Shown here in pieces: positions 7,186 through 23,652 of a DNA stretch of 23,652 nt (position 1 is its first letter; every line of letters starts with the position of its first letter). A model generated the notes under the pieces. The model made no database searches. It saw only the letters and a list, made by a program, of their open reading frames with translations, and had not been told where the DNA came from. The translations under genes were made by a program, and so were the position numbers. This stretch comes from a virus, in the IMG/VR virus record IMGVR_UViG_3300046331_000166, positions 1 to 23,652 of that record; one strand, written 5' to 3'.

Positions 7186-7545
7186 CTAGGTTGCGGATTT
7201 ACTCCGCTTATGATTCAAGTAGACAACATCAAATCTATCAATCATACTTATCTCCCACTCTAAGGGTTGAAGTTTAAACAACTGAAAGAAAGCAATCATT
7301 TCTGTGTAGGTGATGGGATTCTCACCATCAAAACCACTAGTTCTTTTGTTGTTTAACACCCAAAACCAATCCCAACATCTCCACATCTTTCGAGGGAGTT
7401 CTACTAAGTTGTCTAGCTCTTTTGGTAAATTTTTTGCTTGTCGCTGGACACTTAGTAGTTGACTACGGAGTGAACTAGGGTCTGACTCCGAACCTAGTTT
7501 AAACTCCTGTCTTGCAAACTCAAGTGCTTGGTTTATCTCGTCCGC
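7186..7545 (-). CDS. Tail assembly chaperone, gpT-like extension made by frameshifting (GT product)
   Basis: This frame is open for 119 codons (reading from 7545 to a TAG at 7186) in the +1 frame relative to the gene ending at 7520. Its own first ATG is only at 7386, without a ribosome binding site. The upstream 53 codons give a plausible soluble sequence (ADEINQALEFARQEFKLGSE...), so the natural reading is a fusion: 133 residues of the G-like protein, then these 119. The C-terminal part has the tryptophan-rich look (MWRCWDWFWV, LQPLEWEISMIDRFD) of second chaperone ORFs in siphophages, where the T domain recruits tail tube subunits to the tape measure. The upstream frame is closed by a TAA ten codons before the slippery run, which narrows the shift site tightly. 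Frame continuity is seen; use of the shift is inferred from lambda and relatives. Confidence 0.8.
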   Translation of the reverse strand, partial: ADEINQALEFARQEFKLGSESDPSSLRSQLLSVQRQAKNLPKELDNLVELPRKMWRCWDWFWVLNNKRTSGFDGENPITYTEMIAFFQLFKLQPLEWEISMIDRFDVVYLNHKRSKSAT

Positions 7546-7945
7546 GAAAAAAGTTTGTAGGCTCAGCCGACTCCTTGATTACTTGCAAAGCAATCCATTC
7601 GTATTTGGAGATCACACCTGAGATGAGAGCTACATCGTTGCCAACTTCCTTACCACCATCTGACAACCCAACAATACTTTCCACCCTTGAAGCAATCCTG
7701 CGATTAATAACGCTCTCACGCCACAACAGGTCTTCTTCGGTTTGTGGGTCTGATGCTTTACGACCTTTGCGGGCTAGCATCTTCTCACGGTTGTCTTCCT
7801 CTAGTTCAAGCAAGTTGTTTATTTCTTTTACTTTTGGGTGAAAGCTACTACGAATAGTAATTGTCACATCCTTTAGGATTTCACCGTTAGGAGTTACAGG
7901 GTTGAACTTGTGACTGTCGGATTGTATGGTTGATGGATCAAACAT
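7520..7945 (-). CDS. Tail assembly chaperone, gpG-like
   Basis: A 141-residue protein, hydrophilic and largely helical in appearance (LLELEEDNREKMLARKGRKA, with many charged residues and WRESVINRRIASRV). It sits between the tail tube and tape measure genes, the invariant position of the first tail assembly chaperone of siphophages. In these systems the short product and the frameshifted long product coat the tape measure and guide tube assembly; they are absent from mature virions. The start is ATG 7945, with AAAGGAAAA about eleven bases upstream. A strong promoter lies 58 bases before the start. Its last eight residues overlap the shifted reading frame. The identity rests on position, size and the frameshift layout more than on sequence motifs. 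Confidence 0.8.
   Translation of the reverse strand: MFDPSTIQSDSHKFNPVTPNGEILKDVTITIRSSFHPKVKEINNLLELEEDNREKMLARKGRKASDPQTEEDLLWRESVINRRIASRVESIVGLSDGGKEVGNDVALISGVISKYEWIALQVIKESAEPTNFFRGRDKPST
7546..7557 (-). other. Probable programmed frameshift site (+1 or -2)
   Basis: Minus-strand codons read ACA AAC TTT TTT CGC, with a run of six T (A run 7547-7552). A +1 slip at TTT C, or a -2 slip on the T run, joins the G-like frame to the downstream frame. A -1 slip reaches a stop (TAA) after four codons (TCG CGG ACG AGA), so the usual lambda-type -1 event does not fit. Confidence 0.7.
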
Positions 7946-8002
7946 TGTGTATATTTTCCTTTGTTGTTAATTAAAGTAAACTTATTGTCTACGTGTGTTG
8001 TT

Positions 8003-8031
8003 ATTTTAACACTCAAACACCTAAAAGTCAA
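8003..8031 (-). promoter_or_regulatory. Sigma70-type promoter for the chaperone genes
   Basis: On the minus strand TTGACT (8026-8031) is separated by 17 bases from TAAAAT (8003-8008), with a TGT just before the -10 (extended -10). Each hexamer matches the consensus at five of six positions. Transcription would start near 7996, giving a leader of about 50 bases before the ATG at 7945. The bases TAAAATAACAACA recur exactly at the promoter at 14648. Confidence 0.85.
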
Positions 8032-8106
8032 GCGGAATACGTCAACTTATGTTATTGTTTGTTTTTCTTTCGGAAACGGCTAAAGCGGGTGGCCTTCACC
8101 TCTCCC

Positions 8107-8129
8107 CTAAAAGAAACAGCGCTAGCTGT
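8107..8129 (-). terminator. Probable intrinsic terminator ending the structured RNA
   Basis: On the minus strand ACAGC-TAGC-GCTGT (8129-8116) is followed by TTTCTTTT. The stem is only five base pairs, so efficiency may be modest, but the T-rich tail and its place between an upstream promoter and the next promoter fit a transcript end. Confidence 0.55.
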
Positions 8130-8468
8130 CTTATTACTTAATCAAAGGATATACTTAAAAGATAAATATATTAAAGATATAAATAAATAGGAAATAAGAA
8201 GAACCACCACTGCTCCATTAGATAAGCGCTTCTGTCTTATTCTAACCAAGTGTGCATGACACATATATTCATTGAGTCTCATAGCAACGCCGCCTTGCCA
8301 CCATATTCTATGAGAGTCTACTCTAGTCCCTATATGAAGGCTAGAACGGTACTGTTTGGTCTTGAGTCCAGTCCGATTGTCTTTCATGGGAGGCAGCCGA
8401 TTTCAAGCTCACGACACTAACGTGTTCCCAGACGTATCTTTTATTTAAAGCAAGAGATAACCTTGCTA
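8107..8468 (-). ncRNA. Candidate structured noncoding RNA of unknown class
   Basis: A stretch of about 360 bases lies between a strong promoter and a probable terminator and contains no convincing gene. Read on the minus strand from about 8468 it can form at least eight local helices (plus coordinates): 8462-8467/8449-8454; 8426-8430/8387-8391 enclosing 8421-8424/8410-8413 and 8407-8409/8395-8397 (a three-way junction); 8369-8375/8347-8354 with one bulge; 8341-8345 plus 8338-8340 with 8322-8326 plus 8329-8331; 8308-8318/8274-8284 (10 of 11 pairs); 8259-8262/8250-8253; and 8236-8245/8218-8226 (9 pairs, one bulge). The stretch 8205-8430 is also less A+T-rich than the flanks. It is not a tRNA or tmRNA that I recognise. 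An 81-codon frame (8142-8387) lacks a ribosome binding site. Hand folding cannot prove function. Confidence 0.6.
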
Positions 8469-8474
8469 TCCTCA

Positions 8475-8503
8475 ATAGTAGCACTAGATTTGCTTGTTGT
8501 CAA
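8475..8503 (-). promoter_or_regulatory. Strong sigma70-type promoter for the structured RNA
   Basis: On the minus strand a perfect TTGACA (8498-8503), 17 bases, then TACTAT (8475-8480) preceded by TGC (extended -10). Just upstream is a very A+T-rich stretch (about 8510-8550) that could act as an UP element. The predicted start is near 8468, immediately before a six-pair hairpin. A seven-base inverted repeat (TTGCTAT 8463-8469, ATAGCAA 8503-8509) brackets the promoter and could be an operator or chance. Confidence 0.85.
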
Positions 8504-8509
8504 TAGCAA

Positions 8510-8641
8510 CACAGTATTTATTACAAACAAAATAAATTAATTTAAATCACCACACAAGCCATTAAACTACTTCACGGCTACCAAGGTATTGATTGGTTGT
8601 GATAGCAGCTTAAAAGACTGTTTAAATCAATCCTAGACGCA
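8510..8641 (-). other. A+T-rich spacer upstream of the structured-RNA promoter
   Basis: There is no gene here. The part nearest the promoter is almost pure A/T. Farther away a small ACCAA/TTGGT hairpin occurs around 8579-8596. I see no other signal between this and the tail-tube terminator. Confidence 0.5.
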
Positions 8642-8683
8642 TAAAACAAAACCCCTACTAACCGATTAAAGCTAGTAGGGGTT
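8642..8683 (-). terminator. Intrinsic terminator after the tail tube gene
   Basis: An eleven-base-pair perfect stem (AACCCCTACTA 8650-8660 with TAGTAGGGGTT 8673-8683) encloses a 12-base loop and, on the minus strand, is followed by TTTTGTTTT. It lies 17 bases beyond the tail tube stop codon and ends the head-tail joining/tube transcript. Confidence 0.92.
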
Positions 8684-8700
8684 CTAATTAATAAACCAGA

Positions 8701-9912
8701 TTACAAAGAAGTATCTTGCACCATGATCGTGGTTGCAATAGCTCCACCAGAAGTAACGCTGTTTTCCAGTGCTACAAAACTACCGGAGGCCATGATACCG
8801 TTCTCACCATCGGCTTTAGTAAATTCGTTCAACTTTACTCTCGGGAAAGTAAAAGTCATCACGTTAGCAGCAGCGAGATTACTTTCAGTCAAGGCAAACG
8901 TTATAGAGAACTCGGTTTCATCGGTGAATCTTGTTCGTACATCACCGTCAATAAAATAAACACTTAGGTTACCGTTTGCACGGATACGACCTGTGAACAT
9001 GTCTACAATAGTATTACTACCAACAACAGCAGCATTTTCTGTTTGACGCTCTACTGCAAAATCAGCGGAAGTAATAACACCAACAACAGCACCGTCGAGA
9101 ATCAACGCACCGTTAGCACCAGAGAAAATCCCTGTACTAGATTGTGCAGAAGGCGATGTAAAATACGGTGTAACGTCTGCTCTATCACGGTCTTTGCCCA
9201 TAAAAGAGAAGTCCACGGTAACAAGACCGTTTGAAGGAATCTTGACCGACATGTTACTGACTTTGTTTCCAACATATCTTTCATATTGGTTAATATCCGT
9301 GTAACGTTCTTCTACTGTGAAAGACTGGTCTGTATGGCCTGTTAATGGTGCGTATGTTACCTTACCCTTAACCAGCATAGTTGCTGCTGTTATAGCAGCT
9401 TCTGGAGTCATTGCACTACCGTTTAAGACCTTCACGGTCAACGCAAGAGCAGTTGATGTCAGAACCAAAAGGTTTTTGTTCAAGTTAGGCACAGCAAAAG
9501 AACCTGCTGTTAACTGCACCACCATACCCGGCGCTACACCACCCGATAAAAACGAACCTGCTGCACGAGTCACTACATAGTTTTCACCAGAAGCAGTGAT
9601 TGTGATGGTCATACCAGTCAGTGCGGATACAGCAGCAAAGTCCCTGGCCAAGATAGCTTCTGTTAGGTCAAAGTACGAACCAGTTGATAGTTCTCCGTTC
9701 AATGAGCCTTCGGTGCTTTTAGTACCGTGACGACTGTCACTAATTTGTTGGGAAGTACGAATTTCAGCAGACTCGTAAGATTCCTTTTTAAGATTAAAGT
9801 TAGCTGTGACTCTTCGTAGTTGACGAGCCGAACCTGCTACTGGTGCAACACCCCACGTAACCTCTTTGGAGACAGCCACGACTTTGTTCACGCCTTTTGC
9901 AATGATACCCAT
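8701..9912 (-). CDS. Major tail tube protein
   Basis: The 403-residue product begins with the pattern of the Phage_tube_2 family of tail tube proteins: GVNKVVAVSKEVTWGVAP, then RQLRRVTANFNLKKESYESA, TSQQISDSRHGTKSTEGSLN and ELSTGSYFDLTEAIL. Later come a tube-type segment VEERYTDINQYERYVGNKVS and a second beta-rich half. Subunits stack as hexameric rings to form the tail shaft around the tape measure. It is longer than many members, perhaps with an extra surface domain in the centre (about residues 95-180, threonine/alanine rich). It sits between the tail terminator gene and a strong terminator. The Shine-Dalgarno is weak (TTGAAAGAAAT). A five-pair CTAGG/CCTAG hairpin (9937-9955) lies in its leader. 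Confidence 0.88.
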   Translation of the reverse strand: MGIIAKGVNKVVAVSKEVTWGVAPVAGSARQLRRVTANFNLKKESYESAEIRTSQQISDSRHGTKSTEGSLNGELSTGSYFDLTEAILARDFAAVSALTGMTITITASGENYVVTRAAGSFLSGGVAPGMVVQLTAGSFAVPNLNKNLLVLTSTALALTVKVLNGSAMTPEAAITAATMLVKGKVTYAPLTGHTDQSFTVEERYTDINQYERYVGNKVSNMSVKIPSNGLVTVDFSFMGKDRDRADVTPYFTSPSAQSSTGIFSGANGALILDGAVVGVITSADFAVERQTENAAVVGSNTIVDMFTGRIRANGNLSVYFIDGDVRTRFTDETEFSITFALTESNLAAANVMTFTFPRVKLNEFTKADGENGIMASGSFVALENSVTSGGAIATTIMVQDTSL

Positions 9913-14647: not shown

Positions 14648-14676
14648 ATTTTATCACAGAAATGGAGAAAAAGCAA
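14648..14676 (-). promoter_or_regulatory. Sigma70-type promoter for the protease-capsid operon
   Basis: On the minus strand TTGCTT (14671-14676), 17 bases, then TAAAAT (14648-14653) preceded by TGA (extended -10). The predicted start is near 14641, 28 bases before the protease ATG. Its -35 lies in the downstream arm of the preceding terminator. The 13 bases from the -10, TAAAATAACAACA, match the chaperone promoter exactly. Confidence 0.75.
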
Positions 14677-21529: not shown

Positions 21530-22993
21530 TTATGATAGTTTGGTAACTAAGTGGCTAGGTATTGTTGTGTCTTGAAAACCGAACGAATTTGTTTTCGATG
21601 CAAAATCAGGAAGAACGAAGGAAGATGGAAGCTGGATACCTTGGTTTAAATGGTAGAAACTATCTGATAAAGCGTCAGCTATATCGTCGTGTGTGTTTTG
21701 ACTAAAATCCATTTTTTCAAGTTCAGTAAACGCAGAGTCTGTCCAGCTTGCTTTAACACATTGCACGTAACCAGCTTCGCAAGCACTGGCAAAAGGAAGA
21801 AATCTCTGAAGTTTTCCTTTTTCTGGGCGAATAAGTTTTACATGAAAACCACGCTCAGACAAACGCCTAGCAAGGTCTTTGCAGTATGCCCCACCAGTTG
21901 CACCGGGGTCGAGAGGAAGAGATATTACAACTTCCTTGCCATCGCGTTCTGCTGTTTTAAAAATCACATCTTCAACAACATGTACCTTATCTCTGACAAT
22001 AGCTAAATCTTCAAACGTGTAAACAGAAGCTTTGTCTTTAGACAAAAGAACTCCTGCTGTTGCATCTACATCAGGACGTACTTCAGATGGAGCACTGAAT
22101 GCTAAATCCCAAGCACGAACTCTTTTAAATGCTGAAAAATTCGCAGTGTCCACCATTTTCAGGTTTTCACGTTTGAAATATCCAGATTTACTTTCCCTAA
22201 CCCAAGCACCATGTAGGAGTCTTTTTACCTCGACAGGAGGTAAGGCTTTCAAAGTACTTATGTAGTCTTTGTTTTGTTCAAGTCCAATAGGGTTGTCATA
22301 TATTTTACCGGGCACAAACCTGTAGCTCTTGACTGGAGAATTTCCCCTAGCATCTGCTGGATGTTTTCTCCGTGCCTCTTCTGCATCAGCGTAGAAGTGT
22401 GTGCCAAAACTATCTCGAACAAAGTATCTTTCAATATCTGCCACAGAGCTATCTGGTATCATGTCACTGTCTAGACTAAACTCGACAAAAGGCATTAGGA
22501 ACGAATCTGGGTCTGGGTTGCAAGTAATATTGGCCTGCAAAGGATAGTCTACTATGGTTGATCTGAGTCTACTGAGCGCATACGCCACGTTATCACCATC
22601 TAGTTGCTGTCCCTCATCCAGCGAGATACGACTAAACTCCTTACCTTGTAAGTTCATGCGATCCGCAATCTTATCAAGATAGGTGAACTGTATCTGAGCA
22701 CCAGAGCTAAACACTAGGGTTAAATCTCTAGTTTTTATTTTAAGTTTTGGATCAATTTTACTATAAAGCTGTATGGCTGCATCAAACAAACTACCACTAC
22801 CAGACAACATTTTTGTCGTCTTACGTATAACTAGTGCTCTAGTTCCCTTGTGGTGTATGATAGGTAGCATACTCCCCAGTAGACACATTGATTTACCAGC
22901 AAAAGCAGCGCCACCGTATATCGTTAACCAGCTTTTACTCAATAAGAATGCCTGTTGAGCAGCACTAGCTGGCGCAAATAGTATTTTACTCAA
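21530..22993 (-). CDS. terL: Terminase large subunit
   Basis: The 487-residue protein carries the ATPase and nuclease motifs of large terminases. Walker A is GGAAFAGKS at residues 27-35, Walker B ISLDE at about 123-127, and the RNase H-like nuclease is marked by VRAWDLAFS, SLPLDPGATGG and HDDIADALSDS near the C-terminus. It cuts concatemeric DNA and drives it through the portal. The start is a TTG at 22993 preceded by AAAAGG seven bases upstream; the only nearby ATG is followed at once by a stop, and the first in-frame ATG lies after Walker A. Portal is directly downstream, small subunit directly upstream. Confidence 0.95.
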   Translation of the reverse strand: MSKILFAPASAAQQAFLLSKSWLTIYGGAAFAGKSMCLLGSMLPIIHHKGTRALVIRKTTKMLSGSGSLFDAAIQLYSKIDPKLKIKTRDLTLVFSSGAQIQFTYLDKIADRMNLQGKEFSRISLDEGQQLDGDNVAYALSRLRSTIVDYPLQANITCNPDPDSFLMPFVEFSLDSDMIPDSSVADIERYFVRDSFGTHFYADAEEARRKHPADARGNSPVKSYRFVPGKIYDNPIGLEQNKDYISTLKALPPVEVKRLLHGAWVRESKSGYFKRENLKMVDTANFSAFKRVRAWDLAFSAPSEVRPDVDATAGVLLSKDKASVYTFEDLAIVRDKVHVVEDVIFKTAERDGKEVVISLPLDPGATGGAYCKDLARRLSERGFHVKLIRPEKGKLQRFLPFASACEAGYVQCVKASWTDSAFTELEKMDFSQNTHDDIADALSDSFYHLNQGIQLPSSFVLPDFASKTNSFGFQDTTIPSHLVTKLS

Positions 22994-23431: not shown

Positions 23432-23506
23432 TGGAGTATCCTAGGTGAATCGAACACCTGTACTTTACTTAGAAGGAAAAGAGTCTACCGTTAACTTAAT
23501 TGGTAC
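23432..23506 (-). tRNA. tRNA-Arg(UCU)-like gene with defective acceptor stem
   Basis: On the minus strand the T arm (AGGTG TTCGATT CACCT) is perfect, the anticodon loop CTTCTAA (anticodon TCT) sits on a four-of-five stem, the D loop has AACGGTA, and the 3' end reads AGGATAC-T-CCA. The matching 5' strand GTATCCT is absent: only GTACCAA is available, giving about four pairs, and these bases are already the 3' end of the tRNA-Glu gene. It may be a degenerate gene or one with an unusual acceptor. Confidence 0.6.
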
Positions 23507-23576
23507 ACACACGGAGAATTGAACTCACGATTCTTTGGTTGAAAACCAAATATCCTAACCACTAGACGATGCGTGT
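23501..23576 (-). tRNA. tRNA-Glu(UUC)
   Basis: The 76-base cloverleaf includes an encoded CCA. The acceptor ACACGCA pairs with TGTGTGT (one G-T), the anticodon stem TTTGG/CCAAA holds loop TTTTCAA (anticodon TTC), and the D arm reads GTCTAGTGGTTAGGAT. The T stem (GTGAG/CTCCG) is imperfect and may contain a bulge. Confidence 0.88.
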
Positions 23577-23593
23577 AAATTATTGCTATCAAA

Positions 23594-23652
23594 TGGTCTA
23601 TGTGGATGGATTTGAACCACCGACATCTTCCTTCCAAGGGAAGTAGGTTACC
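23594..23652 (-). tRNA. tRNA-Pro(UGG), 5' end cut by the window edge
   Basis: The anticodon stem CTTCC/GGAAG is perfect with loop CTTGGAA (anticodon TGG). The T arm is GGTGG TTCAAAT CCATC and the 3' end CACATAG-A-CCA. The acceptor 5' strand and part of the D arm lie beyond 23652. It reads into tRNA-Glu, 17 bases downstream. Confidence 0.82.

Follow-up and report, generated by a model that had tools for sequence, protein, structure and literature searches.

A lineage-specific insertion between the tail tube and tail chaperone genes of a tailed phage probably carries an independent, apparently noncoding transcription unit

Morons are usually portrayed as genes for proteins. We compared an overlong gap between two phage tail genes with the morons of lambdoid and Mu-like phages (PMC4378225), with the free-standing homing endonucleases inserted in phage structural operons (PMC10448857, PMC2988022) and with phage-encoded small RNAs that have their own promoter and terminator. 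The gap lies in a 23,652-nt window (the whole stretch of DNA analysed), part of the genome of an uncultivated, freshwater-type tailed phage whose terminase, portal, head and tail genes are all on the minus strand. An IMG/VR contig of 31.5 kb, 3300048573_000182, comes from the same species, with 22 differences from the window over 21.8 kb; the 11.2 kb surrounding the DNA described below contain no difference. Among named phages, the closest by tail tube protein are Limnohabitans phage DC31 (50% amino acid identity) and Curvibacter phage P26059A (48%). Because both infect freshwater Comamonadaceae (PMC12195039, PMC5964084), the window phage likely has a similar host. A cluster of tRNA genes (Glu, Pro, Met, Phe) stands ahead of the terminase genes both in the window (23442-23652) and at L120:1603-2136; a fifth tRNA-like match at 23442-23499 covers only model positions 7-64 and is possibly decayed.

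The gap separates the tail tube gene from a tail assembly chaperone gene, whose DC31 equivalent matches the tail assembly chaperone family phrog_313 (E 9e-20). Near the end of the chaperone ORF stands AACTTTTTTCGCGG (7520-7560, minus strand), likely a site of programmed frameshifting such as other long-tailed phages have; the next frame is open in another phase (7186-7386 and upstream). The original prediction held that the late genes here are otherwise packed end to end, so that a noncoding unit between them would be out of place. Searching with a tail tube protein profile brought 72 IMG/VR loci, in most of which the tail tube gene adjoins the chaperone gene. The gap between the two normally measures about 110-195 nt in some 58 relatives, where a terminator and then a sigma-70 promoter occupy it. 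A strong terminator was found in 52 of 60 loci and a sigma-70 promoter likewise in 52 of the 60, two of which are the window's own phage. The premise of end-to-end packing was thus wrong, since a terminator and a promoter at this junction are the conserved layout of the relatives.

The true anomaly of the gap is its length, 755 nt. Because the terminator-then-promoter arrangement is normal in relatives, the strong terminator behind the tail tube gene and the chaperone promoter P2 are, judged by this comparison, the ancestral elements of the junction, now separated by about 580 additional nt (Table 1). This DNA was absent from all relatives found: neither the complete records of 50 relatives nor the closest one contained homologous sequence, and the gap of most relatives is too short to house such a unit. 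Its G+C content is 38% overall and 43% in its middle (8190-8470), against 42-44% in the neighbouring genes. What is odd about the gap is better captured as a lineage-specific insertion at a junction that takes other inserts as well.

Table 1. Features at and around the tail tube/chaperone junction, in window coordinates.
Feature	Position	Strand	Remarks
Tail tube (major tail structural) protein gene	8701..9912	-	phrog_290 tail, E 9e-55; upstream neighbour of the gap
Tail tube gene terminator	8647..8686	-	16-17 bp stem, -24 kcal/mol; position conserved in relatives; upstream limit of the insertion
Lineage-specific insertion, ~580 nt	8060..8640		limits approximate; between the conserved tail tube terminator and P2
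P1, sigma-70 promoter with extended -10	8475..8503	-	TTGACA-N14-TGC-TACTAT
Predicted P1 transcript, ~360 nt	8107..8468	-	from promoter and terminator positions; no recognisable gene or RNA family
46-aa ORF (inner start of the 81-aa ORF)	8142..8282	-	only plausible small-protein candidate; codon-usage z -0.5
Probable weak intrinsic terminator ending the P1 unit	8107..8129	-	7-bp stem, -7.7 kcal/mol, U-rich tail
P2, promoter of the tail chaperone genes	8003..8031	-	TTGACT-N14-TGT-TAAAAT; conserved in relatives
Tail assembly chaperone gene	7520..7945	-	downstream neighbour; 60% amino acid identity to the L123 equivalent, 27% to that of P26059A

We scanned both strands of the whole window for TTGACA/TATAAT pairs at a spacing of 16-18 with at least 10 of 12 matches. 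Exactly two sigma-70-type sites, P1 and P2, were returned; both lie in the gap, on the coding strand, and both are TG-extended. P1 has the form originally predicted, a TTGACA followed by a 17-nt spacer and an extended -10 element, and the proposal that a second promoter serves the chaperone genes is borne out by the conservation of P2 in relatives. Dinucleotide shuffles yield 0.42 TG-extended sites of this quality per 23.6 kb where two were observed. Without the TG condition they yield 6.7 sites per window, so it is the TG and the position of the sites that carry the weight. In a regional scan at 9 of 12 matches the promoter count did not exceed chance, with 2 sites against 2.5 expected. The phage's other strong sites have CTTGACTTTT...GTGnTAAAATA in common, at 8031, 24663, 14656 and 33011 (the last on the other strand; those at 14656 and 33011 partial), positions beyond 23652 being taken from the second contig. 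P1 (TTGACAACAAG...AGTGCTACTATTG) is less like this usual type, which may also be written TTGACTTTT...GTGnTAAAATA, than like the plain host sigma-70 consensus. Its sequence type would fit DNA of other origin, but is only suggestive of it. An imperfect 20-nt direct repeat (8472-8491 and 8500-8519) overlaps P1.

The hairpin originally proposed to end the unit is present as well. Only five strict intrinsic terminators occur on the minus strand in 33 kb of this phage, and it is one of them, the weakest; three of the others (7148, 8683 and 11755) sit just after genes. Because promoters and terminators of this quality are both rare in the genome, their occurrence 350 nt apart in the correct order is unlikely to reflect chance. 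P1 transcripts may also read through the weak terminator into the chaperone genes. Together, the rarity of both signals and the absence of a coding signal make it probable that the insertion contains a transcription unit independent of its neighbours, apparently noncoding and started and stopped by signals of its own.

The longest ORF in the insert encodes 81 aa (8142-8387), and 7% of shuffled sequences contain an ORF of at least this length. Codon-usage z-scores of the insert ORFs ran from -1.2 to +0.6, compared with 4.2 to 18.9 for all 20 phage genes. The 46-aa ORF begins at an inner start, its ATG preceded at 7 nt by an SD-like AAGGCGG; the N-terminal half of its product is basic and the C-terminal half hydrophobic. 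Because the DNA encoding the hydrophobic stretch has only 22% G+C, such residues would be expected by chance through T-rich codons. Neither this ORF nor the 81-aa ORF enclosing it matched a Pfam or NCBIfam family above cut-off, PHROGs gave only a weak match (E 0.048), and the 81-aa ORF had no phage match. With ORFs free of codon bias and of significant family matches, the unit contains no recognisable protein gene, in agreement with the original prediction.

Folding gave a different outcome. The original prediction had described, by eye, at least eight local helices and a 10-of-11-pair stem in a structured RNA. The stem exists (8274-8284 with 8308-8318) and eight hairpins are predicted in the unit, but shuffles contain 5.4 ± 1.5 and 8.5% of them reach eight, a chance-level count that provides no evidence of a selected fold. 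The supposedly structured part, 8190-8468, folds at -71.3 kcal/mol, compared with -71.0 ± 4.9 kcal/mol for dinucleotide shuffles (z -0.07). The full 8107-8468 reaches a z-score of -1.8, for which the terminator and the A+T-rich 3' part are responsible, and sliding 120-nt windows over 8161-8580 gave z-scores of -0.75 to +0.95, ordinary for a genome with a mean of -0.56 ± 1.29. A structured RNA is thus unsupported by folding at chance level and by the Rfam result given below. Folding at the level of shuffles is also seen in some genuine functional RNAs, so the result removes support for a structure and does not disprove one. The part of the insert upstream of P1 (8480-8640, minus strand) folds better than shuffles (z -2.3), and the window's strongest folding signal, exceeding the insert's, lies at 22021-22140 on the minus strand within the terminase large subunit gene (z -5.0, -43.8 kcal/mol).

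We ran the Rfam covariance search that had been proposed, and the only matches in the window at gathering score were the tRNAs at its far end, consistent with the statement that the unit is not a tRNA or tmRNA. A permissive Rfam search of 7950-8720 returned matches far below gathering scores, mostly on the tail tube terminator. The proposed BLASTN comparison likewise yielded no insert homologue among related phages beyond the conspecific contig: across BLASTN in phage and plasmid collections, a scan for the 81-aa ORF, three exact DNA patterns run over IMG/VR and BLAST in the complete records of 50 relatives, that contig was the only homologue. Since this sole other copy of the insert is identical throughout, there is no variation in which to seek covariation; and without homologues there is no sign of selection on the predicted RNA. 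Matches of 17-30 nt to the insert in L006 and L115-L118, most inside open frames, were judged to be chance, as was a 31-nt resemblance of 8134-8164 to the relatives' chaperone gene. The insert is not a duplicate of any other part of the phage that we could find, and the tail tube profile identified no prophage relatives in bacterial genomes.

Other DNA occupies the same gap in some relatives. Four of them carry ORFs of the GIY-YIG homing endonuclease type there, in either orientation. In L021 and L039 (7260-7929) the ORF is 222 aa long, that of L039 matching the homing endonuclease family phrog_314 (E 7e-13); in L046 (5345-6532) and L056 (7281-8177) GIY-YIG-like ORFs lie on the opposite strand. 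The closest relative found, L123 (IMGVR_UViG_3300043423_000046; tail tube 63% and chaperone 60% identical), has a gap of 1195 nt at this junction (L123:1806-3000) that is mostly noncoding. In antisense orientation it contains a 50-aa ORF with a good ribosome-binding site (1936-2088) and a stretch of about 450 nt that has no 50-aa ORF, the latter lying between a TTGACT-17-TACACT promoter (2779-2751) and a hairpin resembling a terminator (2316-2296). We rejected this gap as a homologue of the window's insert, as their alignment scores were about those of shuffles. L123 also has, between its second chaperone frame and its tape measure gene, a 70-aa GIY-YIG N-terminal fragment that is probably decayed (L123:3872-4084).

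The reading we prefer, with a probability of roughly 50%, is that of a moron-like insertion that would give rise to a transcript about 360 nt long and probably untranslated. The insertion, its place, the rarity of its promoter and terminator signals and its want of a coding signal can all be read from the DNA itself. In the mechanism we propose, about 580 nt of DNA would have been placed between the conserved tail tube terminator and the conserved chaperone promoter, bringing with it a host-type sigma-70 promoter and a weak terminator. Host RNA polymerase would then initiate near 8468 independently of the late operon, and the released RNA, of about 360 nt, would most likely act untranslated if it acts at all. 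That the P1 unit is transcribed, that it escapes translation and that it has any effect are inferences, and we attribute no function to the RNA; most weight falls on an untranslated transcript because the coding signal is absent. The L123 gap favours such a reading, being likewise long and mostly noncoding and harbouring an antisense promoter-terminator unit of unrelated sequence. Counting against it are the weak terminator, the chance-level folding, the lack of homologues that might show selection, the SD-like sequence of the 46-aa ORF and the conceivable case of a foreign gene free of codon bias.

In another reading the insertion is a moron encoding a small membrane peptide, its P1 transcript being the mRNA of the 46-aa protein, which might for example act in superinfection exclusion or lysis. 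A promoter and terminator round a single ORF are the textbook moron layout (PMC4378225), the ORF has its SD-like sequence, and its C-terminal half could be a membrane segment; but its codon usage, the lack of a family match beyond the weak PHROGs one, the lack of phage matches to the enclosing ORF, the frequency of such ORFs in shuffles and a hydrophobicity expected from base composition make this unlikely. Also unlikely, though marginally less so, is an origin as the leftover of mobile DNA, a decayed element such as a free-standing homing endonuclease in which P1 is a relic or a spare promoter; in the latter form transcription from P1 would pass the weak terminator to supply the chaperone and tape-measure genes, the RNA being only a long 5' leader. 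The GIY-YIG-type ORFs in the same gap of four relatives, the decayed GIY-YIG fragment in another tail-gene gap of L123 and a terminator that is the weakest of five all speak for it. No GIY-YIG or HNH endonuclease remnant was found, however, in any frame of the insert by comparison with the relatives' GIY-YIG ORFs and with the ORFs of every locus retrieved, searches of Pfam, NCBIfam and PHROGs gave nothing or nothing significant, and rare promoter and terminator signals at the ends of a unit are unexpected of decayed coding DNA.

Two further readings keep the RNA as the product. We consider very unlikely the conserved regulatory or structural RNA of the original prediction, with relatives that happen to be unsequenced. 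In its favour are a noncoding unit equipped with signals of its own, a hairpin count slightly above that of shuffles and an ensemble slightly better defined than theirs, but the supposedly structured part folds like shuffled sequence, Rfam has no match, and about 60 relatives and the phage and plasmid collections hold no homologue. It is also quite unlikely, if less so, that exchangeable promoter-terminator cassettes at a fixed tail junction make untranslated RNAs that regulate host or tail genes; the cassettes would then be the sense unit of the window and the antisense unit of unrelated sequence in L123.

If the preferred reading of a moron-like insertion with an untranslated transcript is true, a protein-free promoter-terminator cassette would extend the moron idea to RNA cargo, and its presence at a site filled elsewhere by homing endonucleases or unrelated DNA would make the junction a hot spot for insertions. 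If the RNA is inert, the locus would still be a useful caution, since shuffled sequence also yields hairpins of the kind that the eye picks out in an intergenic gap. The insert differs from known morons in having no coding region with a detectable coding signal, and the window phage is not known as temperate; like them, it is extra DNA between genes that adjoin in relatives, with its own predicted sigma-70 promoter and terminator; a G+C content a little below that of the flanking genes, for the insert as a whole but not for its middle, may be another likeness. With homing endonuclease insertions it shares the site, as used in four relatives, and the same lineage-specific presence and absence, although it contains no endonuclease sequence or remnant. 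Set beside the small RNAs that phages encode under a promoter and terminator of their own, the unit is predicted from sequence, lies inside the tail-gene region and has no conserved structure or known target; what it has in common with them is its form, a short, apparently untranslated unit with its own signals.
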